Assembly (NCBI RefSeq): GCF_947387515.1
Contig: NZ_CANDOB010000005.1
Location: forward strand, 62,001-126,000
Direction of reading: 5' to 3'
Source of the DNA: Alkalihalobacillus sp. CinArs1
Lineage (GTDB): Bacteria; Bacillota; Bacilli; Bacillales; Guptibacillaceae
DNA length: 64,000 nt
Below the pieces are notes generated by a model. That model made no database searches, had not been told where the DNA came from, and saw nothing but the letters and a program-made list of their open reading frames with translations. Position 1 is the first letter of the stretch. Every line of letters begins with the position of its first letter. The position numbers and the translations under genes are program-made. Below are positions 19,499 through 53,547 of this stretch, piece after piece.

Positions 19499-19531
19499 AA
19501 AAAGCTAACCTCTCAGCGAGGTTAGCTTTTT
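19499..19531. terminator. Bidirectional terminator between the symporter and the phosphatase
   Basis: AAAAGCTAACCTC pairs with GAGGTTAGCTTTT around TCAGC; the core arms are 19504-19512 and 19518-19526, with A and T tracts on the two sides. Confidence 0.92.
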
Positions 19532-20141
19532 ACAATTCTAGATGTGTAGTGATATTCATGCTTTTTAAGACGATCTCATCTCCAGACACATCTACTATAT
19601 TGATCCCAGTATTATCTTGAAAGATCTTACGATAATTTGAAAATGGCATCCCTAGTACTCCTGCAAGAAAGAATCGAATGGTATTGTTATGAGCTACAAC
19701 AAGAATCGTATCGTCTGGGTGCTTTTTCGCCATCTCTTTAAAGAAGGCTGAAGCTCTTTCATACATTTCTCTTGCCGTTTCTCCAGTTCTTCCAGCTCTT
19801 GTTTCCCTAGGATTAGCCATCCAACTATGCCAGGAATCTGGGTCTTCTGCTATAAATTCCTTCTTCGCTCTACCTTCCCACTCTCCAAAATCTCCTTCAA
19901 AGATTCGTTCGTCAGATTCAACGGGTAGACGTTCGCCTAGAATTAGTTCCGCTGTAACACGTGCTCTAATTAATGGAGAGGCATAAGCAGCATCAAACGT
20001 CACTTTTCTTAAAAAGTCACCGGCAGCAGCTGCCTGCTTCCTACCAAGAGAAGATAATCCTATATCTGTTCTGCCGCAGTATAAATCTCCTGCTGCGTTC
20101 CATTCACTTTCTCCATGTCTGACGAGATAAATACGCGTCAT
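19530..20141 (-). CDS. Histidine phosphatase family protein (PhoE/phosphoglycerate-mutase-like)
   Basis: 203 residues of the histidine phosphatase superfamily: the phospho-accepting RHGESEWN (His9), the glutamate loop FGEWEGR and the second histidine in VVAHNNTIRFF. Members without mutase insertion are usually broad phosphatases of the PhoE/YhfR type acting in the cytoplasm. AGGAGG lies 9 bases before the ATG. It is single and converges with the symporter gene; structured repeats begin 35 bases upstream of it. Confidence 0.87.
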   Translation of the reverse strand: MTRIYLVRHGESEWNAAGDLYCGRTDIGLSSLGRKQAAAAGDFLRKVTFDAAYASPLIRARVTAELILGERLPVESDERIFEGDFGEWEGRAKKEFIAEDPDSWHSWMANPRETRAGRTGETAREMYERASAFFKEMAKKHPDDTILVVAHNNTIRFFLAGVLGMPFSNYRKIFQDNTGINIVDVSGDEIVLKSMNITTHLEL

Positions 20142-20175: not shown

Positions 20176-20246
20176 AAGATTGAGACACAAATCGTCTCAT
20201 TCGAAAGGCAGCGCTTGTCGAGCCTAGACGCCCACTTCCGCTTTTA
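20176..20246 (-). repeat. Structured ~118-base element, partial copy (inverted cluster)
   Basis: Read on the minus strand it starts TAAAAGCGGAAGTGGGCG, continues with the type I arm GACAAGCGCT and the inner hairpin with GAGACGATTTGTGTCTC, and is then cut off. The right half is missing on the side of the phosphatase gene. Confidence 0.85.
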
Positions 20247-20250
20247 TCTA

Positions 20251-20365
20251 TCCAGCTGCAGTGGGCAGGCTCTCGATCGCTTCACCTTTCAACTAAACAC
20301 AAAAAACGTGTTCCTTTTGAAAGGCTCCAGCGCTTGTCGAGCCTAGACGCCCACTTCCGCTTTTA
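20251..20365 (-). repeat. Structured ~118-base element, full copy, type I
   Basis: On the minus strand AGTGGGC pairs with GCCCACT, AGGCTC with GAGCCT, CGCT with AGCG, and the inner stem CCTTTCAAAAGG / CAACTTT region with AACACG and CGTGTT closes the tip. Adjoins the next copy with only a few bases between. Confidence 0.88.
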
Positions 20366-20370
20366 CTCTA

Positions 20371-20487
20371 TCCAGCTGCAGTAAGCCAAATCCTCCGGTC
20401 GTTTCACCCTTTCGATTGAGACACAAATCGTCTCATTCGAAAGGCTTCCAACGCCCTGCGGATTTAAACGGCTTACTTCCGCTTTTA
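20371..20487 (-). repeat. Structured ~118-base element, full copy, type II
   Basis: On the minus strand AGTAAGCC pairs with GGCTTACT and AAATCC with GGATTT; the middle arm reads GCAGGGCGTTGG with AACGACCGG, the same subtype as the copy at 51544. The tip is GAGAC/GTCTC. Confidence 0.88.
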
Positions 20488-50098: not shown

Positions 50099-50124
50099 AA
50101 AAAAGCCAGAGATCAACTCTCTGA
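50099..50124 (-). terminator. Terminator of dgkB
   Basis: On the minus strand TCAGAGAGTTGATCTCTGG folds with CAGAGA/TCTCTG arms (50107-50112 and 50118-50123) and is followed by CTTTTTT. It overlaps the end of dgkB. Confidence 0.75.
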
Positions 50125-51072
50125 CTTCTCCTCCTCAGGTAAGGTGTTTCTCATCGCTTCTTCATCTGTCGAATGTTTCTTATTCGTTTTTGATGGGACG
50201 ATCATCGTGATATGGCGATAGAGATTTGTAAACTCTGCAGGTAGAGGCCCACCATACTCACCATCAAGATTAAGCTGCATTTTATCAACGGCTTCTACTT
50301 TAATACGGCTCGCTTTTTTATAAACGACGTTTGGATCATTGATATGATCCCCTCGTAGTGCACTGCTCGCGATTCTAATAAACTCTGCGATATTGGTTTT
50401 CTTCAAAATCATTAGATCGAATAGGCCGTCATTGAGAGACGCATGCGGCGCTAGCTTCTCAAAACCGCCGATCGAGTTCGAGTTCGATACGAGGAATAGC
50501 ATGATTTCATCTTCGAATAGTTTTCCGTCATACTCGATTCTAGTCTTTGTCGGACGGATCGATGGAAGCATCTCGATACCCTTCATATAATAAGCAAGCT
50601 GACCTAGCATCGTTTTCAGCTTACTAGGCACTTCATATGTTAATTCCGTTAGACGTCCACCACCGGCAATATTAATGAAATAATGATCGTTTACGCGACC
50701 GATATCGATCGGCATTTCAAGACCTTCGCATAGCACATCCATCGCACCTTCAACCGTCCTAGGTACTCCGATCGCACGAGCAAAGTCATTCGTTGTCCCA
50801 ACAGGAATAATACCGAGTTTCGGCCTGTACGGCTGCTCAGCAATGCCATTGATCACTTCATAAATCGTTCCATCACCACCAGCTGCGATGACAAGGTCAA
50901 ACCTTCTTTCAACTGCGATACGAGCCGCTTTCGTCGCGTCTCCCTCACAAGTCGTCGCATGTGCAGATGTTTCATATCCGTTTATTTCAAGACGTTCTAG
51001 TATATATGGTAACGAACGCTTCACCTGTTCTCTTCCGGACGTGGGATTATAGATCAGTCTAGCACGTTTCAT
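50113..51072 (-). CDS. dgkB: Diacylglycerol kinase DgkB
   Basis: 319 residues. YNPTSGREQVKRSLP and AAGGDGTIYEVINGI are the ATP and catalytic motifs of the soluble DgkB/YegS lipid kinases, with ANGLUE-type GTTNDFARAIGVPR and a C-terminal domain with LNLDGEYGGPLPAEFTNL. It phosphorylates diacylglycerol to phosphatidate so that lipids from lipoteichoic acid synthesis are recycled. It stands between rlmD and the structured repeat array; the gat operon lies beyond. An imperfect AGGATGATGAAGG ribosome site precedes the ATG. Confidence 0.92.
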   Translation of the reverse strand: MKRARLIYNPTSGREQVKRSLPYILERLEINGYETSAHATTCEGDATKAARIAVERRFDLVIAAGGDGTIYEVINGIAEQPYRPKLGIIPVGTTNDFARAIGVPRTVEGAMDVLCEGLEMPIDIGRVNDHYFINIAGGGRLTELTYEVPSKLKTMLGQLAYYMKGIEMLPSIRPTKTRIEYDGKLFEDEIMLFLVSNSNSIGGFEKLAPHASLNDGLFDLMILKKTNIAEFIRIASSALRGDHINDPNVVYKKASRIKVEAVDKMQLNLDGEYGGPLPAEFTNLYRHITMIVPSKTNKKHSTDEEAMRNTLPEEEKSES

Positions 51073-51291
51073 CCTTCATCATCCTATCTTCTATATCTCT
51101 ATTCTATGCTACCATTATAACCCAATAGTAGTCTCTTTTATCTTATTTGAAAAGCCTTAACCGCTCGACAAATTCGAACGAAAAGACTAATAAAAAATGT
51201 TTAACAAACAAAAAACGCCCACATCACCGTGACCGTCTCAACCCGATTAACCTCAGATATGATTATATTCGTTTAAGGTGGAAAAAGCAAT

Positions 51292-51410
51292 GAAAAGCGG
51301 AAGTAGCCGTTTAGGTCCGACAAGCGCTGGAGCCTTTCAATTTGAACACGCTTTTTGTGTTCGGATTGAAAGGTGAAGCGATCGAGGACCTGGCTACTGC
51401 AGCTGGACAA
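51292..51410 (+). repeat. Array copy R1 (type I)
   Basis: AGTAGCC (51302-51308) pairs with GGCTACT (51392-51398), AGGTCC (51313-51318) with GGACCT (51386-51391). Almost identical to R5. Confidence 0.92.
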
Positions 51411-51411
51411 T

Positions 51412-51542
51412 GAAAAGCGGAGATGGGCGATTAGACCCGACAAGCGCTGGAGCGCTTTCCCATGAACACGATTTTTAACACGATTTTTGTGTTCTTGGGA
51501 AAGAGCGAAGCGATCGAGGGTCTGCCCATCACAGCTAGACAT
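51412..51542 (+). repeat. Array copy R2 (type I, internal duplication)
   Basis: GATGGGC (51422-51428) pairs with GCCCATC (51524-51530), AGACCC (51433-51438) with GGGTCT (51518-51523). The tip is enlarged by a repeat of AACACGATTTTT. Confidence 0.92.
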
Positions 51543-51543
51543 C

Positions 51544-51661
51544 GAAAAGCGGAGGTGGCCCGTTTAAATCCGCAGGACGTTGGAGCCCGTGAGGATGAGA
51601 CGCTTTCTGTCTCAACCGAAGGGGCGAAACGACCGGAGGATTTGGCCACCGCAGCTAGACA
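51544..51661 (+). repeat. Array copy R3 (type II)
   Basis: GGTGGCC (51554-51560) pairs with GGCCACC (51644-51650), AAATCC (51566-51571) with GGATTT (51638-51643). Middle arm GCAGGACGTT with AACGACC; tip GAGAC/GTCTC. Same subtype as 20371-20487. Confidence 0.92.
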
Positions 51662-51663
51662 AT

Positions 51664-51780
51664 GAAAAGCGGAGGTGGGCGATTTGAAACGGAGGTATTG
51701 GAACTCTTGAACTTGAACACGATTTTTGTGTTCTGTTGAAAGAGTGAAATATCGCAGTTTCTGCCCACCGCAGCTGGACA
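51664..51780 (+). repeat. Array copy R4 (type III)
   Basis: GGTGGGC (51674-51680) pairs with GCCCACC (51763-51769), GAAAC (51686-51690) with GTTTC (51757-51761); ACTCTT pairs with AAGAGT. Confidence 0.92.
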
Positions 51781-51783
51781 TGT

Positions 51784-51901
51784 GAAAAGCGGAAGTAGAC
51801 GTTTAGGTCCGACAAGCGCTGGAGCCTTTCAATTTGAACACGCTTTTTGTGTTCGGATTGAAAGGTGAAGCGATCGAGGACCTGGCTACTGCAGCTGGAC
51901 A
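51784..51901 (+). repeat. Array copy R5 (type I)
   Basis: Nearly a duplicate of R1; the outer left arm reads AGTAGAC against GGCTACT, one mismatch in the stem, so this copy has recently lost one pair. Confidence 0.92.
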
Positions 51902-51903
51902 AT

Positions 51904-52020
51904 GAAAAGCGGAGACGAGCGTTTAGAAACGGAGATATTGGAACTCTTGAAATAGAACACGCTTTTTGTGTTCTGTTGAAAGAGTGAAATATCGCAGTTT
52001 CTGCGAGTCGCAGCTGGACA
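51904..52020 (+). repeat. Array copy R6 (type III)
   Basis: Like R4: GAAAC pairs with GTTTC, GATATT with AATATC. The outer stem GACGAGC/GCGAGTC has an internal mismatch. Confidence 0.9.
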
Positions 52021-52022
52021 TC

Positions 52023-52072
52023 GAAAAGCGGAGATGGGCGATTAGACCCGACAAGCGCTGGAGCCTTTCAAA
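52023..52072 (+). repeat. Array copy R7 (type I, truncated)
   Basis: Left arm identical to R2 (GATGGGCGATTAGACCCGAC) up to CCTTTCAAA, then stops where the gatB terminator begins. Confidence 0.9.
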
Positions 52073-52100
52073 TAAAAAAAACCCTCCAATCAAGGAGGGC
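52073..52100 (-). terminator. Terminator of the gatCAB operon
   Basis: CCCTCC (52082-52087) pairs with GGAGGG (52094-52099); on the minus strand eight T follow. It touches the end of repeat R7. Confidence 0.8.
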
Positions 52101-52113
52101 TTTCGAAATCAAT

Positions 52114-53547
52114 CTATCGCTTATCCATTTCTTCAACAATTAACTTATTAACCATTGGAGGATTCGCTTTACCTTTTGTTGCTTTCATCACTTGTCCAAC
52201 TAGGAAACCAAGCGCACGGTCTTTACCATTCTTGTAGTCTTCGATCGATTGCTCGTTCTCATCAAGAATACCAGTAACGATTCCGCGTAGCTCGCCTTCG
52301 TCAGAAATCTGAACGAGGCCTTTGTCCTTAACGATCTGTTCAGGATCGCCACCTTTTTCAATAAGATCTTTGAAGACTTTCTTCGCGATCTTAGATGAAA
52401 TGGTACCTTTTTCGATCAATGCAATCAGCTTGCCAAGACCTTCTGGTGTAAGAGCCACTTCGTCAATTTCTTTATAGTTCGCGTTCAAGTAGGCAGACAC
52501 TTCACCCATCAACCAGTTAGAAGCCTGTTTTGGATCTGCGCCTTGTTCGATTGCGACTTCAAAGAAATCGGACATCTTCTTAGACTGAGTAAGAACCTTC
52601 GCATCGTACTCAGGAAGATCGTACTTGTTCACATAGCGCTCACGGCGTGCATCCGGTAGTTCAGGGATATCCGCACGAACGCGGTCCATCCAAGCCTTGT
52701 CGATTGAAAGACGAACAAGGTCTGGTTCAGGGAAATAACGATAGTCGTCAGACCCTTCCTTCACACGCATCAAGATTGTTTTCTTACCTGCTTCATCGTA
52801 ACGGCGTGTTTCTTGTCCGATTACGTTTCCAGCAAGTAGTTCTTTCTCCTGACGTACTTCTTCGTACTGAAGACCTTTTTGAACGTTAGCGAATGAGTTC
52901 AAGTTCTTAAGCTCTGTCTTCGTTCCAAACTCTTCTTGTCCGTATGGACGAAGTGACAAGTTTGCATCACAACGAAGTGAGCCTTCTTCCATCTTACAAT
53001 CAGATACTTCTGTGTATTGAAGAATAGACTTCAACTTCTCGAGATAAGCATACGCTTCTTCAGGTGTACGGATATCTGGCTCAGATACGATCTCAACAAG
53101 AGGTGTACCTTGACGGTTAAAGTCAACGAGAGAATGATTTTCTCCATCAACGTGAGTCAGTTTACCTGCATCCTCCTCTAGGTGAAGACGCGTAATCCCA
53201 ATTCGCTTTGTCTTCCCGTCCACTTCAATATCGATCCAGCCATTTTCACCGATCGGCTTATCATATTGAGAGATCTGATACGCTTTTGGGTTATCAGGGT
53301 AAAAGTAGTTTTTACGGTCAAATTTCGTGTCTTCTGCAATCTCACAGTTTAGTGCCATAGCAGCACGCATTGCGAAATCAACAGCCTGTTCGTTCATGAC
53401 AGGCAGAACACCAGGGTGTCCTAGACAAATCGGGCACACGTTCGTGTTAGGAGGCGCACCGAAATTCGTTGAACAGTTACAGAAAATCTTCGTGTTTGTC
53501 TTTAGTTCCGAGTGAACTTCAAGACCGATGATTGTTTCAAAATTCAT
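52114..53547 (-). CDS. gatB: Aspartyl/glutamyl-tRNA amidotransferase subunit B
   Basis: 477 residues. Opens with [26 protein letters not shown] and has [19 protein letters not shown] (zinc-binding Cys pairs) and the kinase-like core [22 protein letters not shown]; the C-terminal YqeY-like tail ends in the conserved [13 protein letters not shown]. It phosphorylates the glutamate of misacylated tRNA in the GatCAB complex. 16 bases separate it from gatA; it is the last gene of the operon. Confidence 0.96.

Follow-up and report, generated by a model that had tools for sequence, protein, structure and literature searches.

The closest described relatives of the elements reported here are treated in PMC2864571, PMC2267715, PMC6006769 and PMC12306157, from each of which we draw on a part. 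REP, BIME and REPIN sequences, which are associated with RAYT proteins, are intergenic hairpins present in many copies, a share of them close to stop codons, and according to the sections of PMC6006769 used here REP is defined by a GT[AG]G tetranucleotide at the hairpin foot. The same sections describe IS608 and ISDra2 as targeting the replication fork, and a role as RNA, at the 3' end or on the terminating ribosome, has been reported for those E. coli REPs that lie no more than 15 nt from a stop codon (PMC12306157, in part). Bhal-1 of Bacillus halodurans, from a related genus, is an intergenic stem-loop repeat of 74 nt in 36 copies for which the passages used give no gene-end or strand rule, and bcr1 of the Bacillus cereus group is an intergenic repeat of 147-167 nt (PMC2267715, in part); both can be set beside our element by description only. 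Bacillaceae-1 RNA (RF01690), a structured repeat of Bacillaceae that reaches 68 matches in a single genome, has its own sequence and fold (67 nt, two hairpins). It adjoins rRNA operons. The bcr1 repeat, going by the title of a study on it, is said to be mobile-element-like and specific to the B. cereus group.

The element described below shares with REP-type sequences its intergenic hairpin form, its many copies, its frequent closeness to stop codons and a proposed single-strand mobility. It differs in having no GT[AG]G foot, in forming head-to-tail arrays, in its length (about 118 nt as against 21-65 nt, about two to six times longer) and in being missing beside the 14 RAYT-type loci inspected. 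We analysed an array of these elements in a 64,000-nt stretch of DNA from Alkalihalobacillus sp. CinArs1 (the window) and read it, at about even odds (a probability near 0.5), as a tandem cluster of non-autonomous mobile hairpins, REP/BIME-like elements that spread via single strands at the replication fork and have a secondary role as RNA.

The array between gatB and dgkB

The array occupies the intergenic region between two minus-strand genes that we take, from the original prediction and from their translations, to be gatB and dgkB (Table 1); its copies were placed by sequence, repeat search and covariance-model matches. The original prediction had described seven head-to-tail hairpin copies of 118 bases here, and direct reading and the repeat search confirm that the array is real. 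Six copies are complete and the seventh is 3'-truncated, running into the gatB terminator at its A-run (on the minus strand, the T-run), while lengths are 117-118 nt except in copy 2, which has 130 nt. The statement that left and right arms change together in every full copy holds largely, the exceptions being a mismatch in copy 5 (AGTAGAC/GGCTACT) and a tandem G-A pair in copy 6. Nine full-length or near full-length copies had been counted; with a second cluster, which lies on the same strand as its neighbour genes and 71 nt after the upstream gene, the window actually holds 8 full and 2 truncated ones. The folding energy of each of the six complete copies of the array lies at z -5.6 to -7.7, and none of 200 shuffles was as low. 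Minus-strand open reading frames of 89-116 aa across the array are open frames through repeats, and we rejected them as evidence of genes.

Table 1. Features of the two element clusters and their surroundings in the window.
Feature	Position	Strand	Basis and remarks
dgkB	50113..51072	-	
Short leader ACGGTCACGGTGATGTGGGCGTTTTTTGTTTG before dgkB	~51204..51236	-	
Probable dgkB promoter (TTGCTT, 17 nt, TATAAT); abuts copy 1	51262..51290	-	Sequence kept in relative L078, by eye
Copy 1, subtype A, full	51292..51409	+	GAAAAGCGGA...CAGCTGGACA; R1 133.0 bits; MFE z -7.7
Copy 2, subtype A, full, 12-nt duplication in apical arm	51412..51541	+	R1 114.4 bits; sequence
Copy 3, subtype B, full	51544..51661	+	R1 108.3 bits
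Copy 4, subtype C, full	51664..51780	+	R1 118.1 bits
Copy 5, subtype A, full, 1 outer-stem mismatch	51784..51901	+	R1 129.3 bits
Copy 6, subtype C, full, tandem G-A pair in outer stem	51904..52020	+	R1 121.0 bits
Copy 7, truncated, 5' part only	52023..~52069	+	Sequence; repeat family D3
gatB intrinsic terminator; array boundary, 3' side	52077..52104	-	Terminator scan
gatB	52114..53547	-	
Cluster 2, copy 1, subtype B	20369..20487	-	R1 97.5 bits; strand is that of downstream gene 19530-20141
Cluster 2, copy 2, subtype A	20249..20365	-	R1 119.1 bits
Cluster 2, truncated copy	20178..20246 (3' limit approximate)	-	Sequence, by eye

The gatB terminator bounds the array on one side and the probable dgkB promoter on the other. 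A promoter scan of the array region gave nothing above threshold, the probable dgkB promoter itself scoring below it. A terminator hairpin also follows gatB in the loci of relatives (L078-L085, by eye). Eight named relatives have the window site without an array, and the spacer of about 40 nt in L078 is not recognisable in the window; judged by dgkB, the closest named relatives carry the labels Alkalihalobacillus algicola (97%) and Pseudalkalibacillus hwajinpoensis (95%). Since the window array is antisense to both neighbours and missing from these eight relatives, it is probably a lineage-specific, largely neutral insertion without a role in the expression of gatB or dgkB.

Separately, the short leader between the probable dgkB promoter and dgkB shows few changes in L078-L085, and is possibly a small RNA or an attenuator.

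Extent of the family and conservation of its fold

Further copies had been expected elsewhere in the genome, and a covariance model (R1) built from 21 copies of the source genome (G000) finds at least 45 there, along with at least 97 in G010 and at least 67 in G007, two single-contig genomes of the same genus. Each of the 14 genomes of the genus that were searched contains at least 45 copies, R1 matches occur in at least 34 of 41 genomes (own included), and in a class-wide sample at least 41 of 299 genomes match, 20 of them from the same order (own included) and 21 from outside it (19 in one family, 2 in another). These counts are lower bounds, and zeros may be misses, because the searches scored limited numbers of candidates per genome: 89 in the 41-genome search, 150 for the counts in G000, G010, G007 and G027, and 12 in the 299-genome sample. 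In addition, 80 named dgkB loci contain 10 copies in 9 loci, for example in Metabacillus idriensis, M. bambusae, Gracilibacillus oryzae and Lentibacillus populi. The first observation of the array was right, and understated.

The element begins with GAAAAGCGG in 124 of 207 copies, with GAAAAGCGA in 24 and with GTAAAGCGG in 13. In other genera its ends are, by eye, largely shared (starts like GAAAAGCG, ends like AGCTRGAYN) and its interior varies in sequence and length, up to about 200 nt. Rfam gave no relevant match to the window copies, either in the window at the gathering score or in 51000-52300 at E up to 5. A literature search, which lies mostly outside the subscription literature and does not prove absence, returned no description that we recognised as this family, and, among the matches listed (20 of 25), papers containing 9-10-mers of the element looked unrelated by title. 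What emerges is a large structured family in the genus and several other families, whose window copies have no Rfam match.

The family also links up with the unexplained Bacillaceae-1 RNA. RF01690 has 57 matches in G023, a genome of another family, and 68 in G021; there are none in G000 under stricter filters, none in the window, and none up to E=5 in 51000-52300. In G023, 15 RF01690 matches fall in 11 of the 16 loci scanned, on the same strand as the elements and many of them abutting (e.g. L257, L261, L264, L270, L271 and L272), an association that is physical and does not amount to homology. At L116 a match lies inside a 194-nt variant of the element, and at L111 a sub-threshold match lies on the opposite strand.

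The fold is one long interrupted hairpin with helices P1 of 3 bp (AGC/GCT), P2 of 7, P3 of 6, P4 of 4 and P5 of 16 bp, separated by conserved, purine-rich internal loops. Across 138 distinct copies (150 before duplicate rows were removed), in an alignment biased towards the model because it was fitted to it, pairing holds in 95.6% of 4960 cells and double changes occur in 28 of 36 pairs. None of 500 shuffles reaches any of five measures, and slid versions are at most 48% paired, so that the covariation is significant against both kinds of control. A MAFFT alignment made independently of structure already has double changes in 21 of 32 predicted pairs. G:T cells lie far above A:C cells (275 versus 16 of 4960, or 138 versus 16 when one fixed closing G-T pair is set aside), and therefore the GAAAAGC strand is the one that folds; this imbalance comes mainly from P5 and is weak in P1-P4 (29 versus 13). 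The proposal that constraint acts on the fold and not on the letters is supported by the covariation, by this imbalance and by the structure-free alignment. G:U intermediates are rare in the outer helices, which, on a judgement uncalibrated against known RNA, may point to a constraint at the DNA level.

Placement at gene ends and the case for an RNA role

Positions relative to genes were assessed for 135 clusters, 80 from G000, G010 and G007 and 55 from G023, G040, G037, G033 and G027. The sets comprise the best-scoring matches of chosen genomes (the best 150 of 164 for G010 and G007), the further loci being 20 each from G023 and G040 and a few from G037, G033 and G027; six of 213 matches were dropped before counting, and L240, which overlaps L064, was dropped from the cluster counts. 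Open reading frames came from a simple in-house caller, and a sense open frame had to span at least 40 codons.

The first copy lies between -2 and +5 nt of a sense stop codon in 59 of the 135 clusters (36 of 80 and 23 of 55), as compared with 1 of 135 when the same test is applied at the 3' boundary on the other strand. In nine rrn loci the first copy lies 4-5 nt downstream of the Rfam-placed 3' end of 23S rRNA, a tenth (L243) has the same sequence context with its 23S rRNA only partly placed, and at L285 the element begins 2 nt after tRNA-Gln. In six more clusters the stop codon lies, by eye, inside the beginning of the element. When the 59 stop-adjacent clusters, the ten rRNA loci and six hand-added clusters are taken as the sense-gene-end class, and the tRNA locus is left among the others, 60 of 135 clusters, including both in the window, are not classed at a sense gene end. 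Many of these are antisense to both neighbours, and several, the window array included, have their 5' end a few nt from a promoter-like site, as judged by simple scoring with mostly weak scores. In G000, G010 and G007, 126 neighbouring pairs are separated by less than 40 nt, and 123 of these have spacers of 0-4 nt.

Two intercistronic sites of the atp operon could be compared across the genus by eye: atpG-atpD is filled in 6 of 13 members and atpD-atpC likewise in 6 of 13. At atpD-atpC, comparison of G002 (filled) with G011 (empty) places the insertion just after the stop codon, at the base of the native hairpin, which survives, and no target-site duplication was seen by eye at this one pair. 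At atpG-atpD of G010, G005 and G008 a native GAATAG containing the stop occupies the position of the element's GAAAAG, which may be a microhomology.

This placement is what would be expected if the element were a functional cis-acting RNA, a hairpin under selection directly behind stop codons and the 3' ends of mature RNAs, which would there protect or process the 3' end or slow the terminating ribosome, with mobility secondary. Adjacency within 0-5 nt to the 3' ends of open reading frames, 23S rRNA and tRNA argues for such a role, as do the coincidence of transcribed and folded strand at those ends and the E. coli REP precedent cited above. At atpD-atpC, moreover, the element occupies the position that a native hairpin has in relatives free of elements, and that hairpin is unrecognisable by eye in G000, G001, G003, G004 and G008. 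However, 60 clusters fall outside the sense-gene-end class, and copies from such clusters fold equally well: in G000, G010 and G007 the Watson-Crick share in P1-P4 is 94.2% at sense gene ends (77 copies) versus 94.6% elsewhere (61 copies). Each atp site is also without an element in 7 of 13 genus members, G002 keeps its native hairpin beside the element, and an excess on the lagging strand, described below, persists even in stop-adjacent clusters. The non-coding RNA suggested originally agrees with the strand in the atp and rrn operons but not with the many clusters placed elsewhere, and we hold a primarily cis-acting RNA to be a doubtful, though tenable, explanation. In either case, the exact spacing at gene ends and the replication-strand bias described below make it testable, within one system, how hairpin repeats that have no evident transposase spread and whether repeats at stop codons act on mRNA.

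At L178 and L226 in the genus, and at L260 in G023, the element lies 2-4 nt from a -35 box in the same orientation, and the leaders of the genes concerned (GGATACTCTTATCC), which we take to be S-box-like, are similar across distant families.

Replication strand, turnover and proposed routes of spread

Replication direction was inferred from GC skew, leaving out seven clusters in rRNA operons and one locus where the skew was ambiguous. In 62 of 76 non-rRNA clusters of three genomes the GAAAAGC strand coincides with the lagging strand, with lagging to leading ratios of 25:6 in G010, 19:4 in G007 and 18:4 in G023, and nearby genes lie on the leading strand in 142 of 186, 102 of 138 and 67 of 97 cases, respectively (69-76%). 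Stop-adjacent clusters alone give 12:3, 9:3 and 8:4 in the same order. Shared sites tie G010 to G007, which leaves G023 as the one independent repeat of the bias. The leading strand carries the copies in rrn loci and those at atpG-atpD in G010.

Orthologous clusters were compared as same-orientation matches, leaving out rRNA clusters. Of 23 such clusters in G007, 22 have an orthologue in G010, so new insertion is rare there, and copy number differs in 15; of 18 in G000, 7 have an orthologue in G010 and 5 in G007. The set of occupied sites thus varies from species to species, though more slowly than copy number does. Later copies carry the unusual start of the first copy in 16 of 46 cases against 2.3 expected. 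The three subtypes alternate, as had been noticed in the window: in G000, G010 and G007, neighbours are of the same type in 33 of 127 pairs, below the 45.3 +/- 3.3 of within-cluster shuffles. From the copy-number changes at shared sites, the shared odd starts and the alternation, arrays seem to turn over locally, whereas closely related species keep the same sites.

These observations are most economically explained by REP-like hairpins that are mobile and have, at gene ends, a secondary role as RNA. New sites would be reached only rarely, by way of single-stranded DNA at the fork during replication, a route that would give rise to the strand bias, and the element would insert where harm is small, either a few nt from a gene 3' end in sense or beside a gene on the opposite strand. 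Clusters would then grow and shrink locally, alternating and diverged subtypes persisting because slippage removes identical neighbours, and copies inside transcripts (the atp operon, the 23S-5S spacer) may act as 3'-end or intercistronic RNA hairpins. Several observations count against this account. No target-site duplication was seen at the one pair compared, the enzyme searches described below gave no candidate tied to the elements, new insertion is rare between G007 and G010, which are not independent, and the G:T imbalance is weak in P1-P4. If insertion were merely harmless, spacing as narrow as 0-5 nt would not be predicted. Plasmids and phages are also places to look for a mobile element, yet nucleotide searches, which are weak for diverged copies, gave no match in a plasmid collection (two queries) or a phage collection (one query).

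The lagging-strand bias is also consistent with the hairpin substrate of a single-strand transposase that had been put forward for the array, but searches for Y1 proteins, RAYT loci and reverse transcriptase (PF00078) tied no mobilising enzyme to the elements. Y1 transposase genes occur in 37 of 41 genomes, and those of G000, G003, G010, G007, G023, G040 and G033 include proteins that, by length and motifs, we take to be RAYT-type. G023 also has IS200-type Y1 copies (L326, L327 and L335), the L327 open reading frame beginning about 255 bp from an element. Canonical REP sequences mobilised by a resident RAYT would be in keeping with such proteins, with the adjacency to stop codons and with the fork targeting of IS608 and ISDra2 (PMC6006769, in part). 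They are nevertheless unlikely here: foot, length and arrangement all depart from REP as set out above, no element lies within about 2 kb on either side of the 14 RAYT-type loci (0/14, one 13.8-bit match with E 0.46 being disregarded), and G027 has at least 30 elements and no Y1 match.

What stop codons, mature 23S rRNA and tRNA ends and the 3' end of a preceding element may have in common is that RNA ends or is cut there. That the elements are targeted to RNA 3' ends of all these kinds is a speculative idea to which we give little credence, yet if it were true, a structured element that is joined to such an end, or copied onto it, at the lagging strand of the fork, and this where no reverse transcriptase is matched in the genome, would be a new kind of mobile element that reads RNA ends.

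Still less probable is that the elements serve as terminator or insulator modules between genes, as the position of the window array between a terminator and a promoter, and the complementary strand, which ends in a hairpin followed by CCGCTTTTC, might suggest. A terminator scan of 50900-52300 gave only gatB's own terminator and none in the array, and sense copies stand inside atp and rrn operons; the transcription barrier among the original suggestions is weakened on the same grounds.

Fragments of the element are distributed unevenly around clusters. Downstream of 59 of 80 and 22 of 55 clusters there is a 5' fragment of a further copy, with 10 and 4 in shuffled downstream sequence, and 3' fragments lie upstream of only 10 and 6, counts that depend on a random sample of 60 element ends and on a score cut of our choosing. 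Target-primed retro-insertion, which would leave one exact junction and, at the opposite end, truncated copies, as in 5'-truncated retroelements, could draw on these fragments and on the possible microhomology seen by eye at the atpG junction of G005, G008 and G010, but is highly improbable, as local duplication can also make fragments, given the odd starts that later copies share with the first, and PF00078 has no match in seven genomes rich in elements (G000, G010, G007, G023, G027, G032 and G033), though it is present in 17 of 41 genomes, including the element-bearing G001, G005, G008, G009, G037 and G040 (the last two element-rich). A MITE of a DDE transposase fits poorly as well: the element has no terminal inverted repeats, its outermost pairing being only AGC/GCT, inset from both ends.

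Other repeats are found next to the elements in some genomes. Several arrays of G000 (L162, L163, L164, L165 and L167) are adjoined by a second short repeat family with units of about 23-26 bp that alternate between TTGGACAATAAA and TTAGCTAATAAA, with TTCGCTGATAAAATC-like variants too, and in G040 another repeat (GGAGTGCAAGACGAAGACTCC ... CGCGGAAAGCGAAGTC) borders the elements at L278, L286, L290, L292, L293 and L296.
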